Source of the DNA: Psychrobacter aquimaris | GTDB lineage: Bacteria; Pseudomonadota; Gammaproteobacteria; Pseudomonadales; Moraxellaceae | Direction: 5' to 3' | DNA length: 64,000 bases | Assembly: GCF_016107525.1 (NCBI RefSeq) | Contig: NZ_JABASR010000007.1 | Location: 62,001 to 126,000, forward strand | Shown: one piece after another, positions 10,200-64,000 of the stretch | Numbering within the stretch: the first letter of the stretch is position 1 | How the letters are laid out: every line of letters begins with the position of its first letter | The notes under the pieces: model-generated | Seen by the model: the letters and a program-made list of their open reading frames with translations, nothing else | Databases searched by the model: none | Told to the model about the DNA's origin: nothing | Made by a program: the position numbers and the translations under genes

Positions 10200-10213
10200 G
10201 CTAAGGATAAATC

Positions 10214-13099: not shown

Positions 13100-13111
13100 T
13101 TTATGCGTGAT

Positions 13112-13158
13112 TACCTGAACCGCATCATCTAACCATATCTAATGCCGCTCATCATAAT
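13112..13158 (+). promoter_or_regulatory. putative activator-dependent late promoter, copy 2 (protease/capsid)
   Basis: The 23-bp box at 13112-13134 is identical to those at 5279 and 19264. CATAAT at 13153-13158 is in the same register as in copy 1, and TCATCATAATG around it is shared with copy 1. It precedes the protease gene, as the Mu PI promoter precedes gene I. Confidence 0.7.
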
Positions 13159-13221
13159 GAGACTTTATCGACACTCTTTATTTTACGTTGTCGCGATTTT
13201 ACTCATTAGCTGGACGTCATT

Positions 13222-14214: not shown

Positions 14215-14309
14215 GCTGGTGGTTATGTCTACCGTGCGCTGAGTAACTTGCTTGGCGCAATAACAGCAAATCCTTTATTAGCCTTATCAAATACCACTAG
14301 GAGCACTCC

Positions 14310-14636: not shown

Positions 14637-14699
14637 ACGCTGATTGACAGCCCTTTAACTTTGATTTAAACCGCATTTACATTTAACAAGGATTGCATT

Positions 14700-46316: not shown

Positions 46317-46967
46317 AGAGAGCCCATCTCAGATTCTGTGTAACTACCCTTTAGATTAAATGCTTACTGATACGATCATCAAACATAATCATAAAACGAT
46401 TAAGAGCAGCCGTCCAGTTACGAATTGGCATCGACCACTTTTTGCATACCTGCTGGGTGGCTAAGTATACCACCTTGAATGCGGCTTGATCAGATGGGAA
46501 CACCACACCTTACGCTTATTCACTGCCGTCCGAATGAGACTATTCAGTGATTCTATAGCATTGGTGGTATAAATGGCTTTTCTAATGTTTTTAGGATATT
46601 CGAAGAACGCTGTTAAGCCCTCCCAATTGCTGCGCCAAAACTTAACCTCATGCGGGTATTTATTACCCCACACCTTATCGAAATGCTCAAGATCGGCCTC
46701 TGCTATCTCAAGCGTATCAGCGCCGTAGATGGCCTTTAAGTCAGCCGCTACTGCTTTCTTATCCGTCCATGGCACAAACTTCATGGAATAACGCACCATG
46801 TGTACGATACACAGCTGAACCTGAGCGTTGGGGTAAACCGTATTGATAGCATCATGGAGGCCTTTTAAACCATCGACACAGGCAATGAGGATATCTTGTA
46901 CTCCACGGTTTTGTAGTTCAGTGAGAACGCCCAGCCAGAACTTAGCGCCCTCATTCTCTGATAGTCA
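46317..46967 (-). pseudogene. IS256-family transposase remnant
   Basis: On the minus strand the IS256-type sequence runs from SENEGAKFWLGVLTELQNRG (cut at about 46965) through QLCIVHMVRYSMKFVPW and YTTNAIESLNSLIRTAVNKRK. Near 46490 the frame shifts, and the tail FKVVYLATQQVCKKWSMPIRNW ... ISKHLI ends with TAA at 46351. The first half of the transposase is missing. AGAATCTGAGATGGGC just outside the stop (about 46320-46340) resembles an IS256 terminal repeat. The copy cannot be active. Confidence 0.85.
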
Positions 46968-47463
46968 CATACCAAGTAGCTCTTTTTTACCGTTAAGAGC
47001 AAACCCCAATTTTCACAAAGATACCTGATAAATCTTATTATCAATAATTCGTGCTGTAAGCTTTATATGAATAGGCTTGGAGAGATTATTAATATAGTGT
47101 ATTCATATCTTTTTAGTATTCAGTATATCTATAAATACTATTCATAGACCCGTAATATTATAGGTAGTCGCACCAAGTAATTTCAAATATATGCATACAT
47201 ATAAGCCAGTTATTTCGAAACTATCTTGCCAGCCACACCATTCATTCGATATTTTTTAGTATCTCATGTGATAACGATACCAAAGAGCTTATCATCTGTT
47301 TAATAATTTTTTATGAATTATGATAGAACATGGTAGATGCTAACTTGTTAAATTTATACATTTATCAATACATTTAATTAAGCTTATGTAACAAGATAAA
47401 ACATTTGTGTTATATTATGAGGGAGGTAAAAATTCACGACGAATGTTAACTATTGGAGCGGTA
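46968..47463. other. AT-rich stretch with an IS-like tract
   Basis: At about 46990-47035 lies CAAACCCCAATTTT-C-ACAAA followed by ACCTGATAAAT. A close relative lies at 59219-59255 (CAAACCCCAATTTT-G-ACAAA, ACCTGAGTAAAT). It may be the edge of a shared mobile element. No gene is supported. Confidence 0.35.
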
Positions 47464-47853
47464 ATGAAATCCACTTACTTATTATCTTTAGCTTTCTTTA
47501 GCCTGTCATTTCTTGTATCTACTAGTGCATTGGCAGCCCCTAGTTTTTCAAATGGTATTAATGTCTATACTAGTCAAGACGGTGGTGTGTATACCACTAC
47601 TTGGACTGCGTATCCTATGACAATAGAAGGGTATACAGGCGCTAATCTCAAAAAGCCAGACAATCTGCTGATTGCTTTAACAGCTGATGGTAAAACAAGT
47701 AGTTTTAGAGGAGTGCTAAGTATTACTTGTTCAAACCCAATAAGTTCAAACATAGTAAGTGATACAGATTACAAAAGCCTGAAAGAAGCGATGGCTGATT
47801 ACACGCTACCTCGCCCCGTAGTGAATAACCTCTTTGCCAAATTCTGTAAATAG
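47464..47853 (+). CDS. secreted protein of unknown function
   Basis: The gene encodes 129 residues from the ATG at 47464 with GGAG at 47455; upstream in-frame starts would bury the signal. The signal peptide is MKSTYLLSLAFFSLSFLVSTSALAA, cut before PSFSNG. The mature part has two Cys (LSITCSN and a C-terminal AKFCK), probably a disulfide. No family is recognised. A terminator follows. Confidence 0.6.
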   Translation: MKSTYLLSLAFFSLSFLVSTSALAAPSFSNGINVYTSQDGGVYTTTWTAYPMTIEGYTGANLKKPDNLLIALTADGKTSSFRGVLSITCSNPISSNIVSDTDYKSLKEAMADYTLPRPVVNNLFAKFCK

Positions 47854-47880
47854 CTATTACCATTTTAAAAAATCATTAAG

Positions 47881-47912
47881 AGTTGTCCATATAAACAATG
47901 GGCGACTTTTTT
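47881..47912 (+). terminator. intrinsic terminator
   Basis: AGTTGTCCAT (47881-47890) pairs, with two G-U pairs, with ATGGGCGACT (47898-47907), followed by six T. It ends the preceding secreted-protein gene. Confidence 0.8.
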
Positions 47913-48064
47913 GTTTGTTTAGCAGATCCATAGGTTAATGAATTTAAAACTGCAAAAGTGTTCGGTACATGAATGGAGATTTATTCGTACCCATTATTCT
48001 TTGCTAAAGATTAATTCTTGTTCCTATAGTCTTTCCACTCATTTTCAATATTAAGAGCTTAACT

Positions 48065-48820
48065 ATGAAATCAGGTCATGTTTTATCATTAGTTGCTATA
48101 AGCAGTATTATTGCGTTATCTGGCTGTACGGACAATAAAGAAGCAGAAGCTACTCAAGAAGTTACTACTGAAAATTCGGCTGTTAACAAAGAGGTGGTTG
48201 CAGTAGAACCAGTAGTTGCTGAAGAAGAGATCATTGTTATTGAAGAAGAGGTTGTCGAAGAAGAAAACGCACCTAGATTTTCTAAGATTACTGATTATCT
48301 CACTTTAAAGCCCAATACTGATTGGCAATGGGAGACGCTGGCTGAAATACCTGGTGTGCGAGAATGGCGAAACAAGATACCTACTTTAGATGGAGGTACC
48401 AACTATTCCATCATTGGTGACTTAGATGATCATAGCTATGTTGTAGCTTATGGCACTAAAACAAAACCAAGTTTAATTAATATTAGTTCTGGTCAGGGCA
48501 TAGCAGAAGATGAAACAACAAGTGCCGTTTATAAGCTTGAAGATCTATTTAGAGAAAAAGAATTAACGCGTGTGCAATCTAATTGTGATACAGATGAAGA
48601 CTTTCCTTTTTCCCAGCATTTTTACAAATGGCAAAAAGAAGGCTATCAGCCTCTTTATGTTCTTGCAATGATAGAAGAAGGCAATTCTGGTACATCCAAG
48701 GATTTTGGTATCGCTAAAAGCTTCGAAGACTTTTATAAACCTGAAAACAGAGATATGTACCCTAATTTAATAGATTCTGATGATGATGGTAATGAGATAA
48801 CCTGTACTTTTGACCTGTAA
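48065..48820 (+). CDS. lipoprotein with acidic linker
   Basis: The 251-residue protein starts MKSGHVLSLVAISSIIALSGC, a lipoprotein signal with Cys21 followed by Thr-Asp, so outer-membrane placement is possible. A Glu/Val-rich linker (about 25-75, EEEIIVIEEEVVEEE) precedes a globular domain with Cys residues near the end (SNCDTD, EITCTFDL). The signal is nearly the same as that of the next gene, which suggests a shared origin. Its function is unknown. Confidence 0.65.
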   Translation: MKSGHVLSLVAISSIIALSGCTDNKEAEATQEVTTENSAVNKEVVAVEPVVAEEEIIVIEEEVVEEENAPRFSKITDYLTLKPNTDWQWETLAEIPGVREWRNKIPTLDGGTNYSIIGDLDDHSYVVAYGTKTKPSLINISSGQGIAEDETTSAVYKLEDLFREKELTRVQSNCDTDEDFPFSQHFYKWQKEGYQPLYVLAMIEEGNSGTSKDFGIAKSFEDFYKPENRDMYPNLIDSDDDGNEITCTFDL

Positions 48821-48857
48821 TATTTATTCAGTATTTTAAACGCTAATGGATTAAATT

Positions 48858-49538
48858 ATGAAATCGAATTATATGTTGTCATTGGTTGCTATTAGCAGCC
48901 TTATTGCTCTATCAGGCTGTGCTGAGAGTCAAACAATGGGCACAACAGTAGTAAAAAGTGTTGGTTCTTTGGTGAATGAGGTAGTGACAGGCACTATAGC
49001 AGGTGTACAACAAGGCTTAGGTGGCTCTTCTGTGGATACTAACAAAGTAGCGATAAGCAGCTCTCAAAAATTACCAACAAATGATATGCTTTATTTATTT
49101 GGTGATATGGAAGGCGGATGTGTAGGTAAAAACTTATCCTTTAAAACTTTCGACCAAAGTCAGTTGTCATTAGAGGATAGTATTAAAGGGGTATCACAAG
49201 ACTACCGATACTTTGTTAAGCCGAGGTCACAATGGTTGTCAGCATATCGAGATACGATAAAGGAAGTAAAAATAAAAGAGGGAGGTGAGTTTACCGCATA
49301 TCATCTAATATTCAAAGACGGTATTAAATATCGCGGCCAGCCTTTAGAGGAATACGTATTTATGTTTAGACCAGAATCTTCAGGTGCAGGTGAAGCCTTA
49401 AAGTTCGCACCAACCGCCAATCTCTCCACTATTTTGCCTAATTTTAAATCTTACAAGATGGAGTATTGGGATGAAATAATAGATATGGGTGCAACGTATA
49501 ATTCTAAAAACAAAACGTTTACTTGTCTTTTTGATTAA
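48858..49538 (+). CDS. lipoprotein of unknown function
   Basis: The 226-residue protein starts MKSNYMLSLVAISSLIALSGC, a lipoprotein signal with Cys21. The mature part opens with a Gly/Val-rich amphipathic stretch (VKSVGSLVNEVVTGTIAGVQQGLGGSS), then a globular domain ending TFTCLFD, close to the EITCTFDL end of its neighbour. The two are probably diverged paralogues in tandem. The space between them is only 37 bp. Confidence 0.65.
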   Translation: MKSNYMLSLVAISSLIALSGCAESQTMGTTVVKSVGSLVNEVVTGTIAGVQQGLGGSSVDTNKVAISSSQKLPTNDMLYLFGDMEGGCVGKNLSFKTFDQSQLSLEDSIKGVSQDYRYFVKPRSQWLSAYRDTIKEVKIKEGGEFTAYHLIFKDGIKYRGQPLEEYVFMFRPESSGAGEALKFAPTANLSTILPNFKSYKMEYWDEIIDMGATYNSKNKTFTCLFD

Positions 49539-49622
49539 ATGCTCTAATCGTATTATGCGATAACGTACACAGTCTAAACCCAACTATTCCAGCAAAATAG
49601 CCAACCCACAAAAGGATTTAAA

Positions 49623-50099
49623 ATGAAAAATAAATTAGTATCATTTACTGTAGCAGCAGCGTTAGCCCTTACCGTTGTATCAGCTTATGCAGCCCCTGCA
49701 GCAAAAACAAGCACTAAACCAGCTACGCCATTAAAGATCGGTACTACGGATAATGATGGCCTGACAAGATATAAAGGAAAGACTATAGTCTCAGGAATTC
49801 TTGAATATAATATGGTTAATGAAGCAGGGTTTCCGGCTGAGTTTACTGTTGATAACGAATCAAAAGTGATGATTCCCAAAGTACCTAAAACAAACTATCC
49901 TACTCAGTTTGCGCTTGAGTCAGACAATCCTCAAATTGAGAGATTAAAGCTTAATAAAAAGAAGTGCTATCGCATTCCAATGACAATAGAAATTGACGGA
50001 TACTATAGTAGTAGTTATGAGGGTGAATATGATGGTGCTAATTTATTAAAAATTATCAAGAAGGGTACGCCAGTGCTAACAAGTTGTAATGTTGGATAA
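49623..50099 (+). CDS. secreted protein of unknown function
   Basis: The 158-residue protein has the signal MKNKLVSFTVAAALALTVVSAYA, cut before APAAKTS. A short Ala/Lys/Thr linker precedes a beta-rich part with two Cys (KKCYRIP, LTSCNVG). It is preceded by AAAAGGA. No family is recognised. The hairpin at 50207-50253 follows. Confidence 0.65.
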   Translation: MKNKLVSFTVAAALALTVVSAYAAPAAKTSTKPATPLKIGTTDNDGLTRYKGKTIVSGILEYNMVNEAGFPAEFTVDNESKVMIPKVPKTNYPTQFALESDNPQIERLKLNKKKCYRIPMTIEIDGYYSSSYEGEYDGANLLKIIKKGTPVLTSCNVG

Positions 50100-50206
50100 T
50101 AGTAAGGCGGGCATGCTAGTACATATTTGAAATTATATATGTGTAAATCACTACTAATTAGTTTGTATTAATAAATACCAGTATCAAAAACATGACTTGA
50201 GTAAAA

Positions 50207-50253
50207 AAATAGGCTGCTAATGCTATGTTTCATATATAGCTAGTAGCCTATTT
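50207..50253 (+). terminator. long hairpin, likely terminator
   Basis: AAATAGGCTGCTA (50207-50219) pairs with TAGTAGCCTATTT (50241-50253), one G-U pair, 13 bp in all. The flanking T tract is short. It separates the secreted-protein set from the biosynthetic operon. Confidence 0.6.
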
Positions 50254-50456
50254 ACTATTATTGAAACTGCATTGATGAAATAGAATCACTAGTGATCCTT
50301 TTTATGTATTTGTCACTCGTATGAATGCCAACCAATGACATCAAAGTAAAACTATTAAATAGTTTTGACTGAACTACTAGCTTATTAACACAAGAAGCTT
50401 TATGACCTTACTATGTAAATATAAAAGCTAGTTGTTCATTAGCAATGGAGTATCGT
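50254..50456. other. leader region of the biosynthetic operon
   Basis: No gene is seen in this AT-rich stretch, which must hold the promoter of the operon starting at 50457. I find no convincing -35/-10 pair or riboswitch; in particular no FMN-element-like sequence was noticed. Confidence 0.4.
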
Positions 50457-53400
50457 GTGAACGCCCCACAAATAGCAGTGATTATTGCGACTAAAAACAG
50501 ACCTAACTTACTAAAACAAAGAGCTATAAACTCAGTATTAAATCAGTCCATATCACCGAGCTATATTATTGTTGTAGACGATTCTGCTGACCAAAACCAG
50601 TGTCAAAACAGACTGATAGTCGAATCTATCCCATCAACTAATTGCCATATTAAATATTTACTAAACCAGCGAACTCTAGGTGCTAGTGGAGCATGGAATA
50701 CGGCAATAGAATACCTTAGCAACAGCAATGAACAAAAACAGGATTTCAGTTCACTATTTTTAGCATTTCTTGACGATGATGATGAATGGCATCCTAACTA
50801 CTTAGAAAACTGCAAATCGTTAGCAATCACACAGCATTGCAATATGGTGGCAGCTGGATTTTACCGTTATGAAGGTAATGCACAACAGCCTATCAAATGT
50901 ATACCTCCTGACTCACTAAATGAAGAGCTATTCTTGTGCGGAAATCCAGGTATTCAAGGTTCTAACTTATTCTTATCACTAGATATTATGTTGATGGTAG
51001 GCGGTTTTGATGAGCAACTATCAAGTTGCACTGATCGAGACTTGTGTATACGTCTCTGTGAATTAGACGCAATACGCTACTGCAATATAAAAAAACCACT
51101 ACTAACTCACTATGCCGATAGTGATCGTCAACGACTTAGTACACCAAACTCACCAGCCAAGAATAATGGATTAGCAGTTTTTTGGCAGAAATACCATGGA
51201 CGTATGAGCGCTGATCAAAGTAACGCGTTCCTTGAACGCGCACAGCGCCTATTTTTCTGGCAGCCAGAAATATTACCAAAAAAGATACTAAAGCAGGAAT
51301 CTCAAATCGCATTAACTCTTGGCGTTGAATTTGGAAGTTTTTTATTTAACCAATTAGATCAAGCTATTGAAAAAATTCATCATTTAGGCCAGAAAAGTCT
51401 GGTTAGCTTCAATATCGTTTTGACCACAACTAAAAAATTGGATCAGATTGATTTGCGTACGTTTATTGAGCGGATGAATCAACTAGGAGTTACTTGCTAT
51501 AATTTATGCCATCAGCAAACGTGTATTGAAACAGCCACAGCATTTGTTGCCAAAGAAAATATTGGTAATAGCGTATGGGTATTAAAAGATGGTGACTTTC
51601 AAAAGCAACGCTCTATCGAAAGCGAGAACGATTTATCAACAATATTGACGGACTTAGGCGCTCGTCATTTATGTACTAACCGCTGTAATAAACCCCTCTT
51701 AAAACCGCATGCGACACTCATTAATAGAATAAAACAATGCCGCATTGATGCAGCTAATGATCATATCAGCAGGCTATTTGGTATTCATGAGCTTCTACTA
51801 CTTGGTATCGGCTCTGAAGCTGTTGTTATGACAGATGGTCAGCGTGTTTTTAAATGCATTGATTATTGGAAAACCCACATATCTACTGACCAAATCAATT
51901 TTTTAAAATGGTTCAGTTCACAATGGTACAATCTACCTGGTTTATATACCCTTGACGAAGTTATATCAGATGGAAAAACTTTGGTACTCACTTATCCCTT
52001 TGAAAATAGTATCCCTTATCAAGGTGGCAACTGCGAACAAGTGATGGACTTGCTACACAGTTGCAGCAAAGCAGGAATTGTATGTAATAACATGCACCCG
52101 AAAAACTTAATAAAAACCCAAAGTGAAGTGAAACTGATTGATTATGGCGCGGATATTCGCCCATGGAATGAATTAGGGTTCGAACACATGGCTCGGAGGG
52201 CTTATCTAACTATTCATCATGTGGATCATCCAAATCTCAAGCACTTAATGCGCCAATCTCTGCATACAATAAATTTCCCAGAAATGCAGGGCTATCAAGC
52301 ATTTCGTCAAAAATTAACTGGTATTGACTGTAACCTTAAACAAGCACAGGAGGCATGGCTGCCACTTGCCCCACTAGAAAAACCATCCAAGCCATTTGCC
52401 CTAACTATTGGTGTGATTACCGGTGATGCGCATAAGTTATTGCCGTTATTGAATAGTATTGCTGATCTTGCACAATGTGATTTTTTATCCAGTATAAACT
52501 CCATAGTACTATGCAACGGTTGCTCAGATACCTCTGTGAAAGAAACGCTTTCATTCAGTAAAAGGCTATTGGGTGATATAAAAATAATAAGCGAAACACA
52601 ACAGATAGAAGATGCTGCAAGCGGCCTATTTGGTTCTGACTTGGCAAAACGACCAAAAGGCCAAGTGGGAATTGCACATGCACGGAGCATGCTGCAAAAA
52701 TATGTTGGTTTAAAATGCGCAATGACTCCAAATAACTATGCTTGGATCCTTGATGACGATATGCGTTTAGATGCCCGAGCCAAACAGTTTCTAGCTTGGC
52801 TACCAGTGTTTAAGCAAGCAGATATCGATGTAGTGATTGGACAATACGAAGGCTCATCGCCTAATCCTCCATTAAATGGCCTACGTGGCCAATTGGTAGA
52901 TCTTCTTCATAACTTACGCTGGCTTGATAAACTACCAAACAATATCGAATTGCCTGATCGCAGCCACGAAAATACAATACTTCGAGATAAGTATCCTGAT
53001 TATTACTATGACTTATCTCGTAAACATACGGCTCATATCGAAGCACCATTTTGGCTTGAACCCGCCTACAAAGGTGAAAGCGTCACTGAAGCTCGCTCTC
53101 GATTGATTGCACATGCGCCTTTATTGGTTACGGGCTTCCCGCTCACTCGTGGTATTGTTCCAGCATGTTCAACATCTCCATTAGCTGCAGCAAAAGATAC
53201 GGTAAACCGTGGAGGCAACACCTTTGTACTAAACGCTAAAGCCTTAATACAAACGCCTAACCTAATTTTTAAGATTAATGGCCGTGAAGCTCGCCGTTCA
53301 GACATGGTCTGGGCAATAGTCAATAAACATTACCATGGACTAACTATTAAAAGTGCGCCATTTCCTGTTCAACATACTGGGCGCATACAGCACGAACCAA

Positions 53401-53804
53401 TTTTGAATTTAAGTAAAGTACAGGATGAAATCATGGGATCGGCATTGTATGCTGGTCTGCAAGAATTTCTACGAAACAACGAACGACATAACTTGGTCTT
53501 TACTGATATTGAGATTAGCCAGGTATGGAAAGCAACCAAATTAGAATGCAACACTCGTCTTTCACGTTTAAGGCTCAGTTTTTACCGAATCAATGGTTTA
53601 ACGCAAGCTTTATCCAAATATCCAGAACTAAGCGAGTTGTATAAATACTTGGCTAGCTCGTTTAACCCAGATACTTTTACTAAATTAGAAACCCAAGTTC
53701 AACAAATGAACGAGTGCCATATTTACGAATTTTTAAATCAAATAGTGCCGCAGAGTAACCGCTTTGCAAAAGCACATCAGAAAACCCTTGAGAGAATAGA
53801 ATAA
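50457..53804 (+). CDS. glycosyltransferase / kinase-like / glycosyltransferase fusion protein
   Basis: The gene encodes 1115 residues from GTG 50457, chosen because GGAG lies at 50447-50450; an in-frame ATG at 50445 has no such site. Residues 1-230 are a GT-A family 2 domain (AVIIATKNRPNLLKQRAINSVLNQS, LDDDDEW near 103, CTDRDLCIRLCELD). Residues 430-620 look like a protein/lipid-kinase fold: GIGSEAVV loop, FKCID Lys, HPKNL catalytic loop near 546, LIDYG in place of DFG near 560. From about 647 a second GT-like domain begins (TIGVITGD..., WILDDDMRLD near 762). No signal or membrane helix. It is first in an operon with RibA-NADAR, AsnB-like and NAT-like genes. Confidence 0.8.
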   Translation: MNAPQIAVIIATKNRPNLLKQRAINSVLNQSISPSYIIVVDDSADQNQCQNRLIVESIPSTNCHIKYLLNQRTLGASGAWNTAIEYLSNSNEQKQDFSSLFLAFLDDDDEWHPNYLENCKSLAITQHCNMVAAGFYRYEGNAQQPIKCIPPDSLNEELFLCGNPGIQGSNLFLSLDIMLMVGGFDEQLSSCTDRDLCIRLCELDAIRYCNIKKPLLTHYADSDRQRLSTPNSPAKNNGLAVFWQKYHGRMSADQSNAFLERAQRLFFWQPEILPKKILKQESQIALTLGVEFGSFLFNQLDQAIEKIHHLGQKSLVSFNIVLTTTKKLDQIDLRTFIERMNQLGVTCYNLCHQQTCIETATAFVAKENIGNSVWVLKDGDFQKQRSIESENDLSTILTDLGARHLCTNRCNKPLLKPHATLINRIKQCRIDAANDHISRLFGIHELLLLGIGSEAVVMTDGQRVFKCIDYWKTHISTDQINFLKWFSSQWYNLPGLYTLDEVISDGKTLVLTYPFENSIPYQGGNCEQVMDLLHSCSKAGIVCNNMHPKNLIKTQSEVKLIDYGADIRPWNELGFEHMARRAYLTIHHVDHPNLKHLMRQSLHTINFPEMQGYQAFRQKLTGIDCNLKQAQEAWLPLAPLEKPSKPFALTIGVITGDAHKLLPLLNSIADLAQCDFLSSINSIVLCNGCSDTSVKETLSFSKRLLGDIKIISETQQIEDAASGLFGSDLAKRPKGQVGIAHARSMLQKYVGLKCAMTPNNYAWILDDDMRLDARAKQFLAWLPVFKQADIDVVIGQYEGSSPNPPLNGLRGQLVDLLHNLRWLDKLPNNIELPDRSHENTILRDKYPDYYYDLSRKHTAHIEAPFWLEPAYKGESVTEARSRLIAHAPLLVTGFPLTRGIVPACSTSPLAAAKDTVNRGGNTFVLNAKALIQTPNLIFKINGREARRSDMVWAIVNKHYHGLTIKSAPFPVQHTGRIQHEPILNLSKVQDEIMGSALYAGLQEFLRNNERHNLVFTDIEISQVWKATKLECNTRLSRLRLSFYRINGLTQALSKYPELSELYKYLASSFNPDTFTKLETQVQQMNECHIYEFLNQIVPQSNRFAKAHQKTLERIE

Positions 53805-53805
53805 A

Positions 53806-54864
53806 ATGCCTTTTAAAGATTACTGCGAACTCCCAACACTACACGGCACATTTAGAATGTACGATACTGGCAACGAAATGTTACGAGTAGTCACTTTTGG
53901 TGATATCAATAAACTAGAGAGTAAACCAATACTGCGATTACATTCTTCTTGCCTAGCCTCTGAAGTATTTGAAGCAAGGGACTGTGACTGTGCCGACCAA
54001 TTGCGCGAATCCATGAAGATAATGGCACACAATGGAAGTGGGATCATTTTCCACTTACATCAAGAAGGCCGTGGTCAGGGCCTTTCTAATAAGATTCAAG
54101 CAGTATACAAAATGCAGAGTGAAGCTTTAGATGCAGCAGAGTCATTTGAGGCACTGGGTTTAGAACAAGACGTTCGCGACTATGCACCAGCTATAAATGT
54201 GCTAAAAGAAATGGTAATAAAACAAGTGCGCTTAGTATCAAACAACCCACGTAAGCGACGCGCACTAGAACAAGCAGGAATCGAAGTAGAGCTACTTAAT
54301 ACACACCCACAAATACGGCCTGAAAATATAGATTACTTGAAAAGTAAAAACGAAAAATTAGGGCACTGCCTGCCTTTAGGTTTTGAGTATGACAATATTA
54401 ACTCTATTTTATTTTACCATTCAGATCAAACTTGGGGAGAGCTTTCTAACTTTTCAAAACATGCCATATATCTGCATAATAAAATTTGGCCGACAACAGA
54501 GCACTTTTACCAAGCACAAAAATTTAGAGATCATACATTGCAAGAGCGCATACGCTGTGCAGCAAGTCCTATGTTAGCCAAACAAATGGCTAAGCAGTTA
54601 GAATCACAACACCTACAACCTAACTGGCATAACATGAAGGAAGAGATAATGCTGCAAGCACTTACAGCCAAATTTACTCAGAACCCTGAACTTGAAGCGT
54701 TATTATTATCAACCCAGCAATATCACATAGCCGAACATACACTCAATGACAGTTATTGGGGCGATGCAGAAGATGGTAGTGGCTTGAATCGGTTAGGTGA
54801 ACTGTTAATGCAATTGCGTAATCAGCTACAGTTCAACAAAGAAGCGCAACTATGTGCGGAATAG
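53806..54864 (+). CDS. GTP cyclohydrolase II - NADAR (YbiA-like N-glycosidase) fusion
   Basis: The 352-residue protein joins two enzymes. Residues 1-195 are RibA-like: zinc ligands in HSSCL and RDCDC (about 47-65), the HQEGRGQGL motif with the catalytic Arg, GLEQDVRDYAP and NNPRKRRALEQAGI. Residues 205-345 are NADAR: ELSNFSKHAIYLHNKIWPTTEHFYQAQKF and YWGDAEDGSGLNRLGELLMQLR. RibA opens GTP to a diamino-ribosylamino-pyrimidinone phosphate; YbiA-type domains remove the sugar phosphate from such intermediates. Together they would give a free triaminopyrimidinone. The gene starts one base after the previous stop. Confidence 0.9.
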   Translation: MPFKDYCELPTLHGTFRMYDTGNEMLRVVTFGDINKLESKPILRLHSSCLASEVFEARDCDCADQLRESMKIMAHNGSGIIFHLHQEGRGQGLSNKIQAVYKMQSEALDAAESFEALGLEQDVRDYAPAINVLKEMVIKQVRLVSNNPRKRRALEQAGIEVELLNTHPQIRPENIDYLKSKNEKLGHCLPLGFEYDNINSILFYHSDQTWGELSNFSKHAIYLHNKIWPTTEHFYQAQKFRDHTLQERIRCAASPMLAKQMAKQLESQHLQPNWHNMKEEIMLQALTAKFTQNPELEALLLSTQQYHIAEHTLNDSYWGDAEDGSGLNRLGELLMQLRNQLQFNKEAQLCAE

Positions 54865-56288
54865 TCGTGCTTCACGGTGATACCGCCGAACAGAATATAT
54901 CAGCTGCTTTAACTCGCCTTACTCATCGAGGTCCTGATGACCAACACTATTGGATCAAGGGGAAGTTAGCTATTGGGTTTGCACGTTTGGCAATTAATGA
55001 TGAAAGCATTAAAGGACGCCAACCTTACAAATCCAGCTGTATGATAGGAGCTTTTAATGGCGAGATTTACAATGCAGATTTACTTGCAAAACAATATGAC
55101 CTCCTTCGTAATAGCGACTGCGATACACATGTAATCGCGCCACTATTCGCTCAACTGGGTGAGCAGGTACTAAGCGAGTTAGACGGATTTTATTCAGGGG
55201 TTATTTATCAACTGGAGACAAATACGATTCTATTGTTTCGCGACCATATGGGTAAAAAGCCACTGTTTTACGGTCAAGCCAATAACAACCTATTTGTTGT
55301 CAGTGAACTTAAAGCCCTACAAAATATTGACTGGTTCGAGCAAGTGCCCCTTGGTATTAGTCAGCTTGACTTAGCTACGGGCACGCTTACCCAAATAGCA
55401 CGCCACCAACAGTTAACCAGTACAACATCTAATCTGCTTTCAGCAATGGAACAAGCAGTTATTAAACGCTTACCTAAACAGCCCTTCGGTGTTTTCCTGA
55501 GCGGAGGTCTAGATAGTTCGATTATTGCGGCTATAACTTGTCAGCATCGCCAAGATGTAACTTATTTTACTCTGGGAGATTCCAATAGTATTGATGTTGC
55601 TATGGTTGAAATGCTTGTTAAACACCTAAGATTAAAGCAAGTTATCTACATGCCATTACCAAGTAAGCAAAAGTTACCCGGATTGATTGATAAAGTACTT
55701 TACGCAACTGAAAGTTACAATCCATCGATCATTAGTAATGGTCTTGCGACTTATTTATTAGCTCAAGCAGCACAGAGGAAAGACTTAAAGGTAGTACTAA
55801 CCGGAGAAGGGGCAGATGAGCTGTTTGCTGGTTACCATGAGCAACTATCTGAACAAGAGTGGCAAGTTATTCGTACCAAGCTGATAACCGATATGCACTT
55901 TACAGAACTTCGTAGGCTTGATAAGTGCAGCATGGCACACAGTATTGAAGCTCGTTGCCCATTTTTAGATCGTACAGTAAAGAGGGTTGCCGATGACCTT
56001 GAGCATAAGCAGTTCTATATTCCCGGTTACAACAAAATAGCACTTAGGGACGCCTTTAGGCACTTATTGCCTGCCGAGATCGCAAACCGAAAAAAGACCT
56101 CGCTTGATGTTGGTAGTGGCATTCGAAAGTTGGTAGTGGACTATTTAACCCGTAACGGTAATACAGAAATGGTAGAACTTAAGGAAATATGGAAAGATAC
56201 ATTCACATACGATGTAGACGATCCTTACTTTTTTAGCTATCCAACATTTGATTCTGCTATTGCTAAACGAGGAGCATCTCACAGATGA
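54852..56288 (+). CDS. asparagine-synthetase-like glutamine-dependent amidotransferase
   Basis: The 478-residue protein has the AsnB layout: Cys2 as amidotransferase nucleophile (MCGIVVLHG), LTHRGPDDQHYW, FNGEIYNADLL, then the synthetase domain with the PPi loop FLSGGLDSSI near 213-222 and GEGADELFAGYHEQL. C-terminal KCSMAHSIEARCPFLDRTVKRVAD is also conserved. It is shorter than housekeeping AsnB (about 550), as are many pathway-specific copies that amidate small molecules or form lactams. The start overlaps the RibA-NADAR gene by 13 bases, so translation is coupled. Confidence 0.88.
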   Translation: MCGIVVLHGDTAEQNISAALTRLTHRGPDDQHYWIKGKLAIGFARLAINDESIKGRQPYKSSCMIGAFNGEIYNADLLAKQYDLLRNSDCDTHVIAPLFAQLGEQVLSELDGFYSGVIYQLETNTILLFRDHMGKKPLFYGQANNNLFVVSELKALQNIDWFEQVPLGISQLDLATGTLTQIARHQQLTSTTSNLLSAMEQAVIKRLPKQPFGVFLSGGLDSSIIAAITCQHRQDVTYFTLGDSNSIDVAMVEMLVKHLRLKQVIYMPLPSKQKLPGLIDKVLYATESYNPSIISNGLATYLLAQAAQRKDLKVVLTGEGADELFAGYHEQLSEQEWQVIRTKLITDMHFTELRRLDKCSMAHSIEARCPFLDRTVKRVADDLEHKQFYIPGYNKIALRDAFRHLLPAEIANRKKTSLDVGSGIRKLVVDYLTRNGNTEMVELKEIWKDTFTYDVDDPYFFSYPTFDSAIAKRGASHR

Positions 56289-56965
56289 CAGTGCATTTAG
56301 CTCAACAAATACTACTCGCTAAATTTAAGCAAGAGCCATTCCATAATTTATACCTACTCAACAACGTACACCCTGCAACGATGGCATATGGTGGTACCTG
56401 TTCAGACAAAGCTCTAAGCTACTTAGATGCAACCAAAGCAGTTGGGTTAGATGCATACTTGCACTCTGCTCGCATTGGTGGAAAAGATATCCACCGACTA
56501 GTAAGACTGGAAATAAACAACCAGCGCTACTTTGCAGATATTGGCAATGGGTGGCCATCCATTCAACTTATCCCAGCCGAAACCCCCATTTTATATGAGT
56601 GTTACGGCATGCGCTTTAGGACTACGATAGAAAACGATGTGATCACAGTCTACCACCGAAAACGTAATGTAGAAAAAAAACAAATGGAAATTGATATTGC
56701 CGCAAAGTCTGAAACCGAAATCTATCACAGTATTGAAAACCGCTTTTCTGCCGATATTATCTATCCATTTAGTAGCCAGTTACGTTTCTCGATGGTTGTT
56801 GGTAAACGCTTTTTATTTATTCGCGATACCCAATTAGAAATTTACAGCAATAGTGGCTACGAGGAGGTTCTAAACATCAGTATGAGTAATCTGCAAGACG
56901 TTATAAAGAAATACTTTGGCTATGATATTAAGCCAATCGAGTCTCAATTTAGCGATACAAACTAA
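56285..56965 (+). CDS. arylamine N-acetyltransferase-like protein
   Basis: The 226-residue protein overlaps the AsnB-like stop (ATGA). It shows the NAT triad pattern: Cys39 in GGTCSDKALSYLDATKAVGLDAYLHSARI, His70 in DIHRLVRLEI and Asp85 in YFADIGNGWP, with the Cys-to-His spacing shorter than in standard NATs. NAT-type enzymes move acyl groups from CoA to aromatic amines, or form amides in natural-product pathways. The N-terminal helices of full NATs are reduced. As the last gene of the operon it may acylate the aminopyrimidine made upstream. Confidence 0.8.
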   Translation: MTVHLAQQILLAKFKQEPFHNLYLLNNVHPATMAYGGTCSDKALSYLDATKAVGLDAYLHSARIGGKDIHRLVRLEINNQRYFADIGNGWPSIQLIPAETPILYECYGMRFRTTIENDVITVYHRKRNVEKKQMEIDIAAKSETEIYHSIENRFSADIIYPFSSQLRFSMVVGKRFLFIRDTQLEIYSNSGYEEVLNISMSNLQDVIKKYFGYDIKPIESQFSDTN

Positions 56966-57044
56966 TTATAAAATTTGATCTGATAGTTTCATTCCACATG
57001 TAATACTACTATCTCCCAAGTTGATGTGTACGGATTTGACGGCA

Positions 57045-57790
57045 TAGGTCCCACGTCAGTGGGCCTATCCTCCTGAAGATACAATCATTGTCAGGGTAAC
57101 GCAAACCACTGATAGCGGCAATTCAGTATGACCGATATAGTGGGTAGATATGCAGCGAGCCAGCTTACCGACCAGTGAGTATATTGGTTCGATTGTAAAA
57201 AGCCACAAAGTGGTCGAGCTTGAGCAAGCGATCGCGGATGTATTTGCACAAATGGTTGATGATTATTCTCTTAATGCGCTCAATGGTATTTTTAACTATA
57301 TTTAACTATAGCGTGCCGTGCCAGGGTCGTCAGTCGGTCGTAGAGTGCTTTACTAAGCTAAACGGTCTGGTGGTATTCAGGCGTGATGATGACGGGCTAT
57401 CTGATACACTGATGCGGATTATCTATGCCAATTGGCAAGCGCTGGCAAGTGAGCGCGGGCTGGGATTTTTGCAGTTTGTTCTTGATATGCTATACCCCAA
57501 ACAAAATGAAATTATGAGGCTTTGGCACTCTAAATCCTTAGCGCACAAATATCCCTCATATCTGACCGATACCGCGCGTACAGATAGGTTTTTGACCAGT
57601 CGTATTTGTATTAAACTTGATGCAGTGGTAAATATCTGCGAGCTGTCAGAGCTTGCTCCTACATTATCACGGCTTGTGCCGTGGCAGGTTGTGCCAGAGA
57701 TTGCGGTTAACCCACCATCAACTCAGAATATGGACGTCAAAGTTGCGGTGGCTGGCGAGGTTATCGCAGTAGCTGATTTTTCCCCTTTTT
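57045..57790 (+). pseudogene. remnant of prophage tail genes
   Basis: At 57057-57131 a frame ends WAYPPEDTIIVRVTQTTDSGNSV and stop, like the end of a tail-tip protein. From 57149 a 51-codon piece (MQRASLPTSEYIGSIVKSHKVVEL...) stops at 57307. Another frame then runs to about 57790 (GLSDTLMRIIYANWQALASERGLGF, DRFLTSRICIKLDAVV, LSRLVPWQVVPEIAVN), which reads like a phage tail protein lacking its start. The long frame that begins at 57220 is not a gene. The host tail operon is no longer present, so these are decayed pieces of an older prophage. Confidence 0.6.
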
Positions 57791-57810
57791 TGAAATATTT
57801 AAGAATAAAT

Positions 57811-57839
57811 TTGACATATCATAACCCTAGGGTTATATT
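57811..57839 (+). promoter_or_regulatory. hicAB promoter
   Basis: TTGACA (57811-57816) and TATATT (57834-57839) are separated by 17 bp. The first palindromic operator lies in the spacer. Confidence 0.8.
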
Positions 57840-57869
57840 GTACTTAATAATTTATAACCCTAGGGTTAT
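57821..57869 (+). promoter_or_regulatory. two palindromic operators of hicAB
   Basis: ATAACCCTAGGGTTAT occurs perfectly at 57821-57836 and 57854-57869, each a complete 16-bp palindrome, 33 bp apart centre to centre. One lies between -35 and -10, the other just after the start of transcription. They are the natural binding sites for a dimeric HicB or HicAB complex. Confidence 0.85.
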
Positions 57870-57911
57870 GGTTATTACAATAGAAATGAATTTTGATTAT
57901 AGGAGGTTTTT

Positions 57912-58094
57912 ATTAAGTCATCCGAGCTTATAGATATGCTCATAGCAGATGGATGGTATTGGGTCGCCACTAAGGGTAGTCATTTTCAGTACAAGCATAA
58001 AACTAAAAAGGGCAGGGTTACTGTCCCACACCCTAAAAAAGACCTACCGAAAGGTACTGTTAATAGTATTTTCAAACAAGCTGGATTGAAATGA
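57912..58094 (+). CDS. hicA: HicA toxin with an ATT start codon
   Basis: A 60-codon frame matches HicA over its full length: (M)KSSELIDMLIADGWYWVATKGSHFQYKH, then RVTVPHPKKDLPKGTVNSIFKQAGLK, with the catalytic His in KGSHFQY. HicA is a small ribosome-independent mRNA interferase with a dsRBD-like fold. No ATG, GTG or TTG stands at the expected start; instead ATT at 57912 lies five bases after a perfect AGGAGG (57901-57906). The next ATG is codon 9. This rare start would lower toxin synthesis. The gene was too short and lacked a standard start for usual gene calling. Confidence 0.85.
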   Translation: MKSSELIDMLIADGWYWVATKGSHFQYKHKTKKGRVTVPHPKKDLPKGTVNSIFKQAGLK

Positions 58095-58114
58095 TCCAGT
58101 GGCTTTAGCAATAG

Positions 58115-58140
58115 TTAGCTTTGTTTGCAAACGAAGCTAA
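58115..58140 (+). promoter_or_regulatory. hairpin between hicA and hicB
   Basis: TTAGCTTTGTTTG and CAAACGAAGCTAA form a near-perfect 26-bp palindrome (one G-U pair as RNA) in the unusually long 143-bp hicA-hicB space. It has no T tract, so it may be an RNA stability or processing element or another operator. Confidence 0.5.
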
Positions 58141-58237
58141 CGTTTGACTACAGCTAACTTGTAAGTACTAATAAAAAATCTGTTTTGAAATAATCTATAC
58201 CGTTGAATTAATAAAACCTATATAAAGGAGTCTAGCC

Positions 58238-58648
58238 ATGTTTTATCCTATCGCAATCGAGAGAGGAGATAGTCATACAGCGCATGGTATCCGTGTACCT
58301 GATTTACCAGGATGCTTTTCTGCTGCTGATAACTATCAAGATGCTGTTGATATGGCGATTGAAGCTATCGAGCTGCATTTAGAAGGCTTGGTAGAAGACG
58401 GAGAACAAATCCCACTTCCTTCTGATATCGGTGCTTATATGGATAATCCAGAGTACGAAGGTGTAACTTGGGCTTTAGCGCCAGTCGATGTAAATCGTTA
58501 TCTCGGAAAAACTGAAAAAATCAATGTAACTTTACCAAGTCGTCTGATTCATATGATTGATGAGAAAGTTGCAAGCAATAAAGAACGTTATAAGAGTAGA
58601 AGTAATTTTATTGCATTATTGGCAGAAAAGAATTTTTTTGCACATTGA
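58238..58648 (+). CDS. hicB: HicB antitoxin
   Basis: The 136-residue protein has the HicB degenerate RNase-H-like domain (MFYPIAIERGDSHTAHGIRVPDLPGCFSAADNYQDAVDMAIEAIELHLEGL) and a C-terminal ribbon-helix-helix-like part (EKINVTLPSRLIHMIDEKVASNKERYKSRSNFIALL) for DNA binding. It neutralises HicA and represses the operon. It has its own AAAGGAG and is well separated from hicA, so an internal promoter is possible. A strong terminator follows. Confidence 0.92.
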   Translation: MFYPIAIERGDSHTAHGIRVPDLPGCFSAADNYQDAVDMAIEAIELHLEGLVEDGEQIPLPSDIGAYMDNPEYEGVTWALAPVDVNRYLGKTEKINVTLPSRLIHMIDEKVASNKERYKSRSNFIALLAEKNFFAH

Positions 58649-58664
58649 TATTAGTGTTCTAATA

Positions 58665-58692
58665 AAAAAGCCTCGCATTTGCGGGGCTTTTT
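58665..58692. terminator. bidirectional intrinsic terminator after hicB
   Basis: AAAAAGCCTCGC pairs with GCGGGGCTTTTT around the loop ATTT. A and T tracts on either side serve both hicB and the convergent gene at 58718. Confidence 0.9.
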
Positions 58693-58717
58693 ATTAATGG
58701 TAAAAAATACAAACATT

Positions 58718-59035
58718 TTATTTTAACCCTTTAAGTAGCATATTTCTTGCGTATTCTACGCCAGCAGCCTCTTGCATTTCTTGCCAGCTTTCGTAAGTAG
58801 TATTTTCTTGGATAAAGCTCTCCCATTTTTCGTCTGGAATAGCCTCAAAATCTTCGTTTGATTCAATCTTGAACCCAGAAGCATTAAATAATTCATCAAG
58901 ATTGGAGTATTGACTACAGTTTGAGATGAATTTGGGATCCATAAGCTCACCCATCTGAACACTATGCTCCCCTGATAGTTCTGAAGCGTTTTTACTTAGC
59001 TGCTCAAGTCCTGTGAAATCTACTTCATTTTTCAT
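58718..59035 (-). CDS. small acidic protein of unknown function
   Basis: The gene encodes 105 residues, acidic and helical (GLEQLSKNASELSGEHSVQMGELMDP, PDEKWESFIQENTTYESWQEMQEAAGVEYARNMLL). A GAGGAAAAAA ribosome site lies before the ATG at 59035. I recognise no family; the location in a decayed island suggests mobile-element origin. Confidence 0.55.
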   Translation of the reverse strand: MKNEVDFTGLEQLSKNASELSGEHSVQMGELMDPKFISNCSQYSNLDELFNASGFKIESNEDFEAIPDEKWESFIQENTTYESWQEMQEAAGVEYARNMLLKGLK

Positions 59036-59556
59036 GTTTTTTCCTCGTGGTGGATATTTGTATTTGTGCTAAATTTTAGTAAAAAAAAGTTTAATAACAC
59101 TACATAAAGATATCGTAGTAAATATACTCTAAGCCCTTTTTTTGTAAAAACTCTCACTGCTACTTAAACCACGGAACACGCCTCAAGCCTTTAATTTATC
59201 CTTGTCACAATAGCCTTATCAAACCCCAATTTTGACAAACTCACCTGAGTAAATTTTCGAACCCAAAAAGGGTGCTAACAATATGCCGTATATAGCGTTA
59301 GCATCTTTTTTTGCTACTACTTATATCTAATAATTATCGATATTTATTCATCACGCTAATAATTTTAAACCCTCGTTAACAAGGCTATAAGCATCTAAGA
59401 AATTACTACTTAATCTATAAAATAATTTTATTAAAAGCATAATCGTCAGTGAGCTTTAGCATTAGCCAGCTGTTTAAAGACCAATAAACACAATGATAAA
59501 TACTAAAAGGGCTGCTAATGCGCCGAAGCGACCTAGTGCAAGATCACCATGATTAA
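59036..59556. other. intergenic stretch with a terminator and an IS-like tract
   Basis: No gene is seen. It holds the CAAACCCCAATTTTGACAAA tract at 59219-59238 that resembles the one near 46990, and the hairpin described at 59271. Confidence 0.45.
59271..59312 (+). terminator. orphan intrinsic terminator
   Basis: GGTGCTAAC (59271-59279) pairs with GTTAGCATC (59297-59305), one G-U pair, followed by seven T. No intact gene lies upstream on this strand, so it belonged to a lost gene. Confidence 0.7.
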
Positions 59557-59979
59557 GCCAGTCAGTATGAATTTATGTCGCAGATTATCGATTACGATAA
59601 TAAGGATACAGAGAAACTAAGTTTTTATGCTCGCTATTTGCAACCTATGCTACGTGAGAGGCTCGATGATGACGAGATTTATTTCAGTAATATTATCATG
59701 AGTCACTACCGCTTTTCTAAGCTACGTCAACAGGATTTAAAGCTGCAATAAGGTAGTTTCTATCCGCTGAATACTGGTAGTGGTGGAGCTGGCCATGCTA
59801 AGGATAAACAAGAGGACTGGCTATCAAAAATAGTTGCAAGGTTAAATGATCTATTCGATACTGAAAATCTGGCTGATAGAGACCTAATCAATTACTCGCA
59901 AACTATCTGGGATAAAGTTAACGAAAACCAAATCGTCATGAATACGAATAGAGTTAGCGCTTTGAGTGAGAGGGATTGA
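59557..59979 (+). pseudogene. C-terminal remnant of type I restriction HsdR
   Basis: The frame reads YEFMSQIIDYDNKDTEKLSF, ARYLQPMLRERLDD, then TAA at 59749, then GSFYPLNTGSGGAGHAKDKQ, LSKIVARLNDLFDTENLADRDLINYSQTIWDKVNENQIVM and TGA at 59977. This is the C-terminal helical end of EcoR124-type HsdR subunits. The motor and nuclease domains are absent and a stop interrupts what remains. No hsdM or hsdS is seen in the window. Confidence 0.75.
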
Positions 59980-60028
59980 TTATGTCAGATAAAAATATGA
60001 GTTTTTAGCTGAAAGTAGATTTGATTAT

Positions 60029-60349
60029 TTATTTGCTAATAAAGTCACTTCTCCACATAGCATGCTCACATACTGCACAAAACCAACTCTCTTTTGCCCG
60101 CATATAGGCGATATCAGCAGGTACCTCAATAGGACAGGCGCTCCCACAATATTCACAGCAAACATCATCTAAGCAAGCATAGCATTGGCTTATAGTTTCA
60201 AATAATGTTTGAGAGCTAATATTATATTTTTGACAAAGCATACGTACATAATCTATATAGCTGATTTTATGATTATAGGCCCAATAATCTTCACAGACCC
60301 GTTTGTCCCAAGCATTTTGTGTCATGCTCCATTCAATCCTGATGCCCAC
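60029..60349 (-). CDS. small cysteine-rich protein, possible zinc ribbon
   Basis: The gene encodes 106 residues with AAGGAG before the ATG. An N-terminal helical half (EDYWAYNHKISYIDYVRMLCQKYNIS) is followed by CCEYCGSACP and CAVCEHAMW, two Cys pairs that likely bind zinc. No family is recognised. Confidence 0.55.
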   Translation of the reverse strand: MGIRIEWSMTQNAWDKRVCEDYWAYNHKISYIDYVRMLCQKYNISSQTLFETISQCYACLDDVCCEYCGSACPIEVPADIAYMRAKESWFCAVCEHAMWRSDFISK

Positions 60350-60563
60350 AATATACTCCTTTTTAATGGCAGAATGACTATGATTAGTGTCACATTTTTA
60401 TAGTCACTATATCTATCGAACAAGTCGCCCCCATCATAGTTAGCCAGCTATTGAGCAGCAAGATGAGTCTATGACATAATAAAGCGTTAGTCAGCACAAA
60501 ATAGTTTTTGACAGGAACTTAGTTATTGCCAACGAGTATTATTTTAACAGAAAAGTAGTCACT

Positions 60564-60584
60564 GGCAAGTATTTTTTACTTACC
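60564..60584. promoter_or_regulatory. dyad before the XRE gene
   Basis: GGCAAGTA and TACTTACC flank five T, a near-perfect 21-bp dyad 15 bp before the XRE start. It is a likely autoregulatory operator. The half site GGTAAGT recurs upstream of the IetA-like gene at 36428. Confidence 0.5.
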
Positions 60585-60599
60585 AATAAGGATTTTATT

Positions 60600-60818
60600 G
60601 TGATTTCATGTAATCTACCAGTGCTTTTAGCGGAAAGAAGATTGCGAGTTGCAGATTTAGTAAGAATGACAGACATCAGCAAGTCAACGCTTCATAGAAT
60701 TTATAACGATGAGACAACTCGTATAGAATTCGATACCTTGAGTAAGTTGTGCCAAGTATTAAAAGTCAGCCCAGGGGATGTTTTAAAGTATGTTCCCGAT
60801 GAGAATGAAAAGAACTAA
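60600..60818 (+). CDS. small XRE-family regulator
   Basis: The 72-residue protein is a single helix-turn-helix domain of the compact Cro/C1 kind: LPVLLAERRLRVADLVRMTDISKSTLHRIYNDETTRIEFDTLSKLCQVLKVSPGDVLKYVP. The start is GTG at 60600 with AAGGA upstream. A dyad lies before it and a terminator after it, so it is a lone, self-regulated gene next to a recombinase module. Confidence 0.85.
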   Translation: MISCNLPVLLAERRLRVADLVRMTDISKSTLHRIYNDETTRIEFDTLSKLCQVLKVSPGDVLKYVPDENEKN

Positions 60819-60882
60819 GTTTGATAGGAAGGTGGACTGATATAAAACGTTAACCTTCTCACCCAACTAAAATTGAAATTTT

Positions 60883-60930
60883 AAAATACTCTTTAGCCTT
60901 TATTTATCAGGGGTTAGGGAGTATTTTTTT
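60883..60930 (+). terminator. intrinsic terminator after the XRE gene
   Basis: AAAATACTC (60883-60891) pairs with GAGTATTTT (60919-60927) followed by more T; the loop is long (27 bases). Confidence 0.6.
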
Positions 60931-61061
60931 GTCTAAGAAATGGTTATGAATCAGTATTTGAGTTATCCAAAGATAAAAATATAACAGCAATATTAAAGGC
61001 TTTACAAACAATAAGTTATAACATATTATGATGAATATATTTCACTATTAATAATATTAAA

Positions 61062-63930: not shown

Positions 63931-64000
63931 TATTAGCGCTCATAAACTGCGACAGCTGAATAGAGAAGAATCCAAAAAAAGTGTTAAGCGTGACGCTAAA
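63923..64000 (+). CDS. third gene of the recombinase module, cut by the window edge
   Basis: A frame opens at the ATG 63923, overlapping the recombinase stop (ATGGATAA), and runs open to the edge. The visible start is basic (MDNISAHKLRQLNREE, KKSVKRD). The overlap marks it as a member of the same operon. Its identity cannot be told. Confidence 0.55.
   Translation, partial: MDNISAHKLRQLNREESKKSVKRDAK

Follow-up and report, generated by a model that had tools for sequence, protein, structure and literature searches.

A fusion of GTP cyclohydrolase II (GCH II, RibA) with a COG3236/NADAR domain was reportedly described by Frelin et al. in 2015 as a directed-overflow N-glycosidase of early riboflavin intermediates. 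NADAR proteins of the YbiA kind are described as N-glycosidases of early riboflavin intermediates (PMC11125620, PMC11543638), MilB and BlsM as N-glycosidases that release a nucleotide base for mildiomycin and blasticidin S (PMC4081090), and the 8-azaguanine cluster ptn as combining GTP ring opening by a GCH I-like enzyme with base release by a nucleosidase (PMC7109123). Here we analyse a 64,000-nucleotide stretch of Psychrobacter aquimaris (contig NZ_JABASR010000007.1, positions 62,001 to 126,000; hereafter the window), which carries, at 50445-56965, a four-gene cassette encoding a multidomain glycosyltransferase-like protein (gene 1, GT), a RibA-NADAR fusion (gene 2, RIB), an AsnB-like enzyme (gene 3, ASN) and an arylamine N-acetyltransferase-like enzyme (gene 4, NAT). 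That these genes form one biosynthetic unit is well supported; whether the unit is a self-contained, horizontally mobile biosynthetic set for a GTP-derived small molecule we regard as evenly balanced.

The cassette has the same two-domain fusion as the RibA-COG3236/NADAR protein of directed overflow and the same expected first two reactions, but its version lies in an apparently mobile operon with three other enzymes, is without recognised rib neighbours and has a diverged RibA active site. With ptn it has a common logic, namely GTP ring opening, a base-freeing nucleosidase and an N-acetyltransferase domain in one small operon; ptn, however, has a GCH I-like enzyme, an NO synthase, a PpnN-like nucleosidase and an efflux pump, whereas the cassette has GCH II, NADAR, gene 1, an AsnB-like enzyme and no pump (PMC7109123). 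In common with MilB and BlsM, an N-glycosidase would free a nucleotide base for a nucleoside-type product, but theirs is cytosine or hydroxymethylcytosine from (hydroxymethyl)CMP, whereas a ring-opened guanine product is proposed here (PMC4081090). Full-text literature searches on the gene combination, which left most subscription papers outside their coverage, found no cluster with this set, in agreement with an earlier note on this stretch, made from the sequence alone, whose author knew of none.

The four genes are intact open reading frames (ORFs) on the plus strand, spaced by +1, −13 and −4 bases in the order gene 1 to gene 4. The earlier note had argued from the same three values, which the ORF coordinates reproduce, that the genes act together, and had asked whether they are co-conserved elsewhere. 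A RibA-NADAR search (E ≤ 1e-60) found matches in 5 of 105 Psychrobacter genomes and in 2 of 194 genomes of the order, with the window's genome in both; five of these six distinct genomes, the window's included, carry all four genes in order, and the sixth, G069, carries RibA-NADAR alone. An alignment search with gene 1 found 2 of 394 Enterobacterales genomes and 3 of 108 in the genus taken as Vibrio, and all four distinct genomes reached in this way (G890, G910, G1213 and G1220) have the complete set in order. The Enterobacterales draw was centred on G687, one of the 5 of 150 genomes in which the marker, Salinivibrio NrdD, was found at 1e-150, after 0 of 151 at 1e-200. A Pseudoalteromonas donghaensis plasmid has the four genes in order directly after TraV and TraC genes, which brings the complete set to 10 of the 11 loci examined. 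Across six loci the 4-base ASN-NAT overlap is kept in all six, while the RIB-ASN overlap is 13 bases in three and 0 in the other three (in three loci the start of RIB was placed by means of the alignment, a choice that bears on the GT-RIB gap only). Since the same four genes stand in the same order in other families, the arrangement is not due to chance; the neighbourhood evidence answers the question of co-conservation in the affirmative and upholds the view of one unit.

The distribution of the cassette is patchy. Class-wide draws returned the window's own genome alone (NAT, 1 of 369 at 1e-20; gene 1, 1 of 369 at 1e-60; RibA-NADAR, 1 of 151 at 1e-40), and the closest named loci, those of P. 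immobilis, Psychrobacter sp. 4Dc, Psychrobacter sp. 1044 and one uncultured organism, all belong, as judged by matching coordinates, to the window's own genus. Protein lists without genomic context, comprising the best 120 of 4557 relatives of RibA-NADAR, of 121 of NAT and of 376 of gene 1 (for which scoring was confined to the 7995 candidates with the most words in common), contain Photobacterium, Shewanella, Vibrio, Pseudoalteromonas, Alteromonas, Teredinibacter and a Desulfobacter metagenome-assembled genome. Between these lists, 22 RibA-NAT pairs (21 RibA proteins), 21 RibA-GT pairs and 17 NAT-GT pairs agree in the length of the longest contig; on contigs above 5 kb the numbers are 22, 21 and 16, against shifted-length means of 0.28, 0.30 and 0.36 (maximum 3). 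Most entries are without a coincident partner, as expected from best-120 lists and clusters, and the coincidence is an indirect sign of linkage, inferred from the lengths of the contigs and not from their content. One relative, P0293 (1475 residues), unites gene 1 and RibA-NADAR in a single protein.

Comparison of loci indicates that the cassette apparently moves between bacteria as one package. Specifically, the cassette proteins of G1213 (Vibrio) are 90-95% identical to those of the Pseudoalteromonas plasmid, as against 40-57% to two other Vibrio copies and the Alteromonas copy, and the identity matrices of the four proteins are concordant. The sole blastn match (E ≤ 1e-5) between the plasmid locus (L012, 31 kb) and the G1213 locus (L024, 20 kb) spans 7000 bp at 92.5% identity and comprises the four genes with roughly 200-260 bases before and 216 after them; likewise, the sole match between the V. 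rhodolitus locus (L021) and that of G1220 (L025) spans 6728 bp at 87.6% and comprises the four genes with short flanks. A search for end repeats of these 7.0- and 6.7-kb units (shared 9-base words in 300-base end windows) found none in L012 and L025, and one direct word in L024 and one inverted word in L021 that we read as chance. Just upstream of the V. rhodolitus cassette (L021 13508-15329, plus strand) lie ORFs that by eye resemble a transposase pair of the IS3 type and part of an integrase.

Within Psychrobacter, the cassette looks like an inherited island, with window positions 47000-58692 shared with L027 and L004, 47396-57051 with L003, and 50333-64000, with one small break, with L026. 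The ratios of nonsynonymous to synonymous substitution rates (dN/dS) between the window and L027 are 0.23, 0.15, 0.22 and 0.25 for genes 1 to 4; for the distant L024 copy the ratio is 0.05-0.12 in three genes and undefined in NAT, and these values were set aside because synonymous sites are saturated. GC content (39-42% for the cassette genes, about 37% for the 5-kb flanks, 43.8% for the window) gives no clear sign of the cassette's origin, promoter and terminator scans stayed at background level, and no tandem repeats were found. A plasmid search returned one Pseudoalteromonas plasmid with RibA-NADAR and gene 1. A Salinivibrio plasmid (L013) was rejected as a carrier, its match being confined to gene 1 residues 10-270; its region 9992-15465, a different system and perhaps a different small pathway, encodes a 1020-residue glycosyltransferase, a radical SAM protein and a GT2 protein that shares 34% identity with the gene 1 N-terminal domain. 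A viral origin was likewise rejected: scans of viral contigs with the RibA-NADAR, gene 1 and NAT alignments gave 31, 70 and 119 pattern matches, none of them confirmed, and a phage tblastn, run with NAT and not with gene 1 or RibA-NADAR, gave no relative.

The features of the cassette are as follows; invariance refers to alignments of 50 rows for gene 1, 48 for RibA-NADAR and 72 for NAT, the last two made of rows chosen from hit lists, window included, and the looser motif counts given further on come from a pattern scan over 120 listed relatives per protein.

50445..53804, plus strand: gene 1, 1119 residues, with a GT2 domain, an alpha/beta domain, a kinase-like domain and a GT75/MtdL-like domain in this order (ORF, PF00535, AlphaFold2 model, fold matches)
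50460..51296, plus strand: N-terminal GT2 domain of gene 1, residues 6-284; DDDD 110-113 invariant
51792..52352, plus strand: kinase-like domain of gene 1, residues ~450-636; K470 and DYG566-568 kept, Asn549 in place of the catalytic Asp
52389..53789, plus strand: gene 1, C-terminal part (residues 649-1115), folded like the NDP-pyranose mutases MtdL/UAM (GT75); DDD770-772, R950xxD953 and H977 invariant
53806..54864, plus strand: gene 2, 352 residues, RibA (GTP cyclohydrolase II)-NADAR fusion; PF00925 130.2 bits, PF08719 116 bits, TIGR02464 114.8 bits (cut-off 73.7)
53824..54378, plus strand: RibA domain of gene 2, residues 7-191; zinc Cys 49/60/62 retained, HSSCLASE in place of HSECLTGD, the family lacking an equivalent of Tyr105
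54406..54831, plus strand: NADAR domain of gene 2, residues 201-342, YbiA-like; E232, K239 and E310 invariant; E. coli YbiA 2b3w matched at E 2.2e-40
54852..56288, plus strand: gene 3, 478 residues, AsnB-like glutamine amidotransferase/synthetase; Cys2 and SGGLDSS ATP loop; PF00733, PF13522, PF13537, TIGR01536; 1ct9 matched at E 3.7e-39
56285..56965, plus strand: gene 4, 226 residues, NAT-fold acyltransferase; C39-H70-D85 triad; model pLDDT 93.5; 4nv7_A match

The earlier note placed the start of gene 1 at 50457; this is a GTG codon and a possible start, as is the ATG at 50445, four codons upstream. The catalytic residues it had read in each enzyme are all present: C49/C60/C62 and HQEGR in RibA, WPTTEHFYQ in NADAR, C2 and SGGLDSS in the AsnB-like enzyme, and C39/H70/D85 in the NAT-like enzyme.

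The RibA domain scores well above the Pfam cut-off of 23.3 bits and passes that of subfamily NF001591 (156.9 against 148), and stays below the RibA equivalog TIGR00505 (131.2 against 205.85). The zinc cysteines, the Q-E-G-R-G block, D122 and R124 are invariant. The zinc loop, however, reads HSSCxASE in 118 of the 120 relatives, in place of canonical HSECLTGD, and the position after KI(R/D)A, Tyr105 in E. coli numbering, holds V in 96, I in 23, T in 1 and Tyr in none when aligned in direct register; an alternative register, in which a one-residue insertion is placed before the Tyr site, gives Tyr in 23 of 120, window included (Y101). The canonical RibA of four cassette hosts retains both HSECLTGD and the Tyr. 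A Tyr-to-Met substitution at the Tyr105 site of a Streptomyces coelicolor homologue reportedly yields a formylated intermediate (Spoonamore 2006). That work is cited for changed GCH II activities in PMC3509567, and the GCH II reaction passes first through the formylated compound (PMC9478397). With Tyr105 lost in the subfamily, a free 5-amino product cannot be assumed, and the product of the cassette RibA may remain formylated.

Each of the four hosts tested has three PF00925 proteins, one of them the canonical RibA; among the eight non-cassette GCH II loci, a CDC-bearing RibA is present in four, one per host, and two of the other four (L033 and L039), profile-scanned, encode DHBP synthase fused to a GCH II domain. 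The L033 gene (1492-2601, minus strand, Vibrio G1213) lies between apparent ribE and ribH genes and is without NADAR, and does not fit the label RibA-COG3236 that is given to the V. cholerae gene at the ribE-ribH position (PMC5312566). A separate canonical RibA in each of the four hosts means that the cassette should not be needed for riboflavin, and no rib gene was recognised among the window neighbours in the ORF list and profile scans; the earlier note's statement that this is not the vitamin pathway therefore holds. It is very improbable that the cassette is an auxiliary riboflavin module, in which RibA-NADAR would be a directed-overflow or damage-control enzyme with unrelated neighbours: the activity described for YbiA-kind NADAR on early riboflavin intermediates (PMC11125620, PMC11543638) speaks for it, but the three partner genes accompany the fusion in all but one locus, every host tested owns a RibA with Tyr105, the zinc-loop signature is changed in nearly all relatives, and rib neighbours were not recognised beside the window cassette.

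The NADAR domain passes both its Pfam (35.1 bits) and its TIGR02464 cut-offs. A Glu in the last strand is the mark of the YbiA subfamily (PMC11125620); the invariant E310, which aligns in sequence with the Glu of the YbiA EHT block, is a candidate for this residue. NADAR relatives include defence proteins, with a match to PADLOC PDC-M42C (E 6.5e-14) and 96.6 bits to the anti-phage equivalog NF053876, and the cassette is patchy, mobile and found on a plasmid beside transfer genes. These observations would fit a chemical or nucleotide-based anti-phage defence, in which phage would be impeded by a modified nucleotide or base, or ADP-ribosylated guanine would be the NADAR substrate. We consider this distinctly unlikely, as the NF053876 score lies below the cut-off of 240 bits, a Pfam scan of the four genes found no ADP-ribosyltransferase, nuclease or other recognised effector, and direct evidence of phage contact is lacking; the same scan found no ADP-ribosyltransferase family with which to form a DarT-NADAR or YarT-YbiA toxin-antitoxin pair. 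Alternatively, the sugar may not be exchanged at all, with NADAR as an incidental activity and with glycosylation, amidation and acylation taking place directly on the nucleotide or nucleoside; this we hold to be quite unlikely, for NADAR is kept and its E232, K239 and E310 are invariant.

Gene 1 was modelled with AlphaFold2 at a pLDDT of 86.6 and a pTM of 0.84. The fold matches of its GT2 part, which the Pfam scan assigns to PF00535, include the nucleoside-specific GT2 enzyme AvpGT, a nucleoside 3'-O-glycosyltransferase that glucosylates tubercidin (PMC11959488); the two are 20% identical, and other GT2 enzymes score alike. In the kinase-like domain, the catalytic-loop patterns among 120 relatives are xNN in 104 and CND in 1, with the pattern unmatched in 15, and the match to Ser/Thr kinases is weak and local (best E 0.012 over 31 positions); the domain looks catalytically altered. 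In a fold search with the model, the third part matched pyranose/furanose mutases, among them MtdL, an NDP-pyranose mutase (GT75) from the pathway to the antibiotic A201A (PMC9937993). Compared with MtdL, this part has a similar fold but no detectable sequence relation, and it sits inside a larger protein carrying a GT2 domain; by spacing, R814 would be the candidate counterpart of Arg159 in MtdL (7xps). The pattern FPx[..]HxGR round its presumed metal His is found in only 77 of 120 relatives, and the His itself is invariant. Judged from the model, the third part resembles an NDP-sugar ring mutase more closely than it does a second transferase. Of the sugar- and phosphate-transfer domains that the earlier note had assigned to gene 1, the GT2 domain thus stands, but in the kinase-like domain an Asn occupies the place of the catalytic Asp, and the third part is mutase-like in fold.

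The GT2 fold matches also include polysaccharide enzymes such as TarP, RmlT and chondroitin polymerase K4CP. They would suit a role in cell-surface glycan modification, in which a furanosyl sugar made by gene 1 would be transferred by it to a lipid carrier or a polysaccharide, a uronic acid would become a uronamide through the AsnB-like enzyme, the NAT-like enzyme would act on an amino sugar as acyl acceptor, and an unusual aminopyrimidine decoration would come from RibA-NADAR; such a role would also account for the missing exporter. We nevertheless consider it unlikely. No polysaccharide gene set was seen beside six loci (the window, L020, L021, L024 and L025 from ORF lists, L012 from annotation; the profile scan covered the window neighbours only), a fusion that opens GTP and releases a base has no evident place in glycan assembly, and the cassette passes between different families.

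Gene 3 has both the glutaminase and the ATP-loop parts; it scores 270.2 against a cut-off of 267.1 for TIGR01536, and 277.6 against 499 bits for the AsnB equivalog PRK09431. Gene 4 lies barely above the cut-off of Acetyltransf_2 (PF00797, 23.5 against 22.8 bits) and has no NCBIfam match. Its model, with a mean pLDDT of 93.5, confirms the NAT fold, M. loti NAT1 (4nv7_A, E 4.9e-13, TMq 0.80) heading its matches in the PDB; the triad is invariant, and among the 120 relatives GGTC is found in 119, [DE]xGNG in 116 and the His pattern in 95.

The gene set, its order, the domain fusion, co-inheritance and the catalytic residues of the RibA (zinc), NADAR, AsnB-like and NAT-like parts are directly established; the substrates, step order, product and role of the cassette we infer as follows. 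In our preferred reading, a biosynthetic set for a GTP-derived small molecule, RibA would open the imidazole ring of GTP to give 2-amino-5-(formyl)amino-6-ribosylamino-pyrimidinone 5'-phosphate, the formyl group possibly being kept where Tyr105 is missing. NADAR would then cleave the N-glycosidic bond to yield the pyrimidine base and ribose 5-phosphate, as MilB and BlsM do with cytosines; to our knowledge, these enzyme families and NADAR are unrelated. The MtdL-like part of gene 1 would make an NDP-furanose, or bind that donor, and the GT2 domain would attach the sugar to the base or to one of its derivatives; the kinase-like domain would either bind nucleotide in a regulatory role or act as an altered catalytic part. 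The AsnB-like enzyme would amidate a carboxylate of the sugar or a side chain with ammonia from glutamine, and the NAT-like enzyme would move an acyl group to an amine, plausibly the aromatic amine of the pyrimidine.

In favour of this reading count the evidence for one unit given above, the dN/dS values against L027, the resemblance in fold of gene 1 to a GT75 mutase and to the nucleoside-specific AvpGT, and the ptn precedent for combining GTP ring opening with base release in a natural product. Several observations weigh against it. G069, whose RibA-NADAR is 57% identical and stands alone in the 19 kb examined, none of its three partners being present there, is a counterexample to strict linkage. 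The changes in the RibA active site could signal an altogether different reaction. Because polysaccharide enzymes match the GT2 fold at similar Z, a nucleoside acceptor is not implied by the fold matches, and the Asn549 that replaces the kinase Asp is invariant in all 50 rows. The GT75 likeness is structural only: residues 640-1119 have no Pfam match at E ≤ 1, though Pfam-A presumably contains a GT75/RGP model, and a search of the PDB sequences, which include MtdL, with an 8-row profile of the C-terminal part found no GT75 chain at E ≤ 10. Finally, the 7.0-kb common unit has no transporter, regulator or self-resistance gene.

Around the cassette, a Mutator-family transposase fragment (PF00872, covering positions 259-354 of a profile of 379) lies upstream at 46461-46799 (minus strand), and two adjoining genes at 48065-49538 (plus strand) have closely similar lipoprotein-like signal starts (MKS..LSLVAISS.IALSGC) and no significant family match. 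Downstream, a HicB-like antitoxin (PF15919, 153.8 bits) is encoded at 58238-58648 (plus strand), and profile scans of the downstream ORFs otherwise gave no informative family. Two overlapping ORFs (770 and 189 residues; 61618-63930 and 61062-61631, plus strand), in a stretch common to L026, have no informative Pfam or NCBIfam match.

The cassette is short and intact, and its bounds are set by the comparison of two unrelated hosts, so that the whole set could be transferred to E. coli and its product read by mass spectrometry. It is quite improbable, on present evidence, that this product represents a new natural product class, a formamidopyrimidine (opened guanine retaining the formyl group) whose ribose is exchanged for an unusual sugar, perhaps a furanose, before amidation and acylation, produced by the mobile four-gene pathway, handed on among marine bacteria, and serving them as a competition or phage-defence molecule. 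If the proposed pathway is correct, GTP would be converted to a nucleoside-like compound by a new route, and RibA-NADAR fusions would have a physiological role outside riboflavin damage control; the cassette would also offer a natural GCH II whose altered active site could be set against that of the canonical enzyme of the same host.

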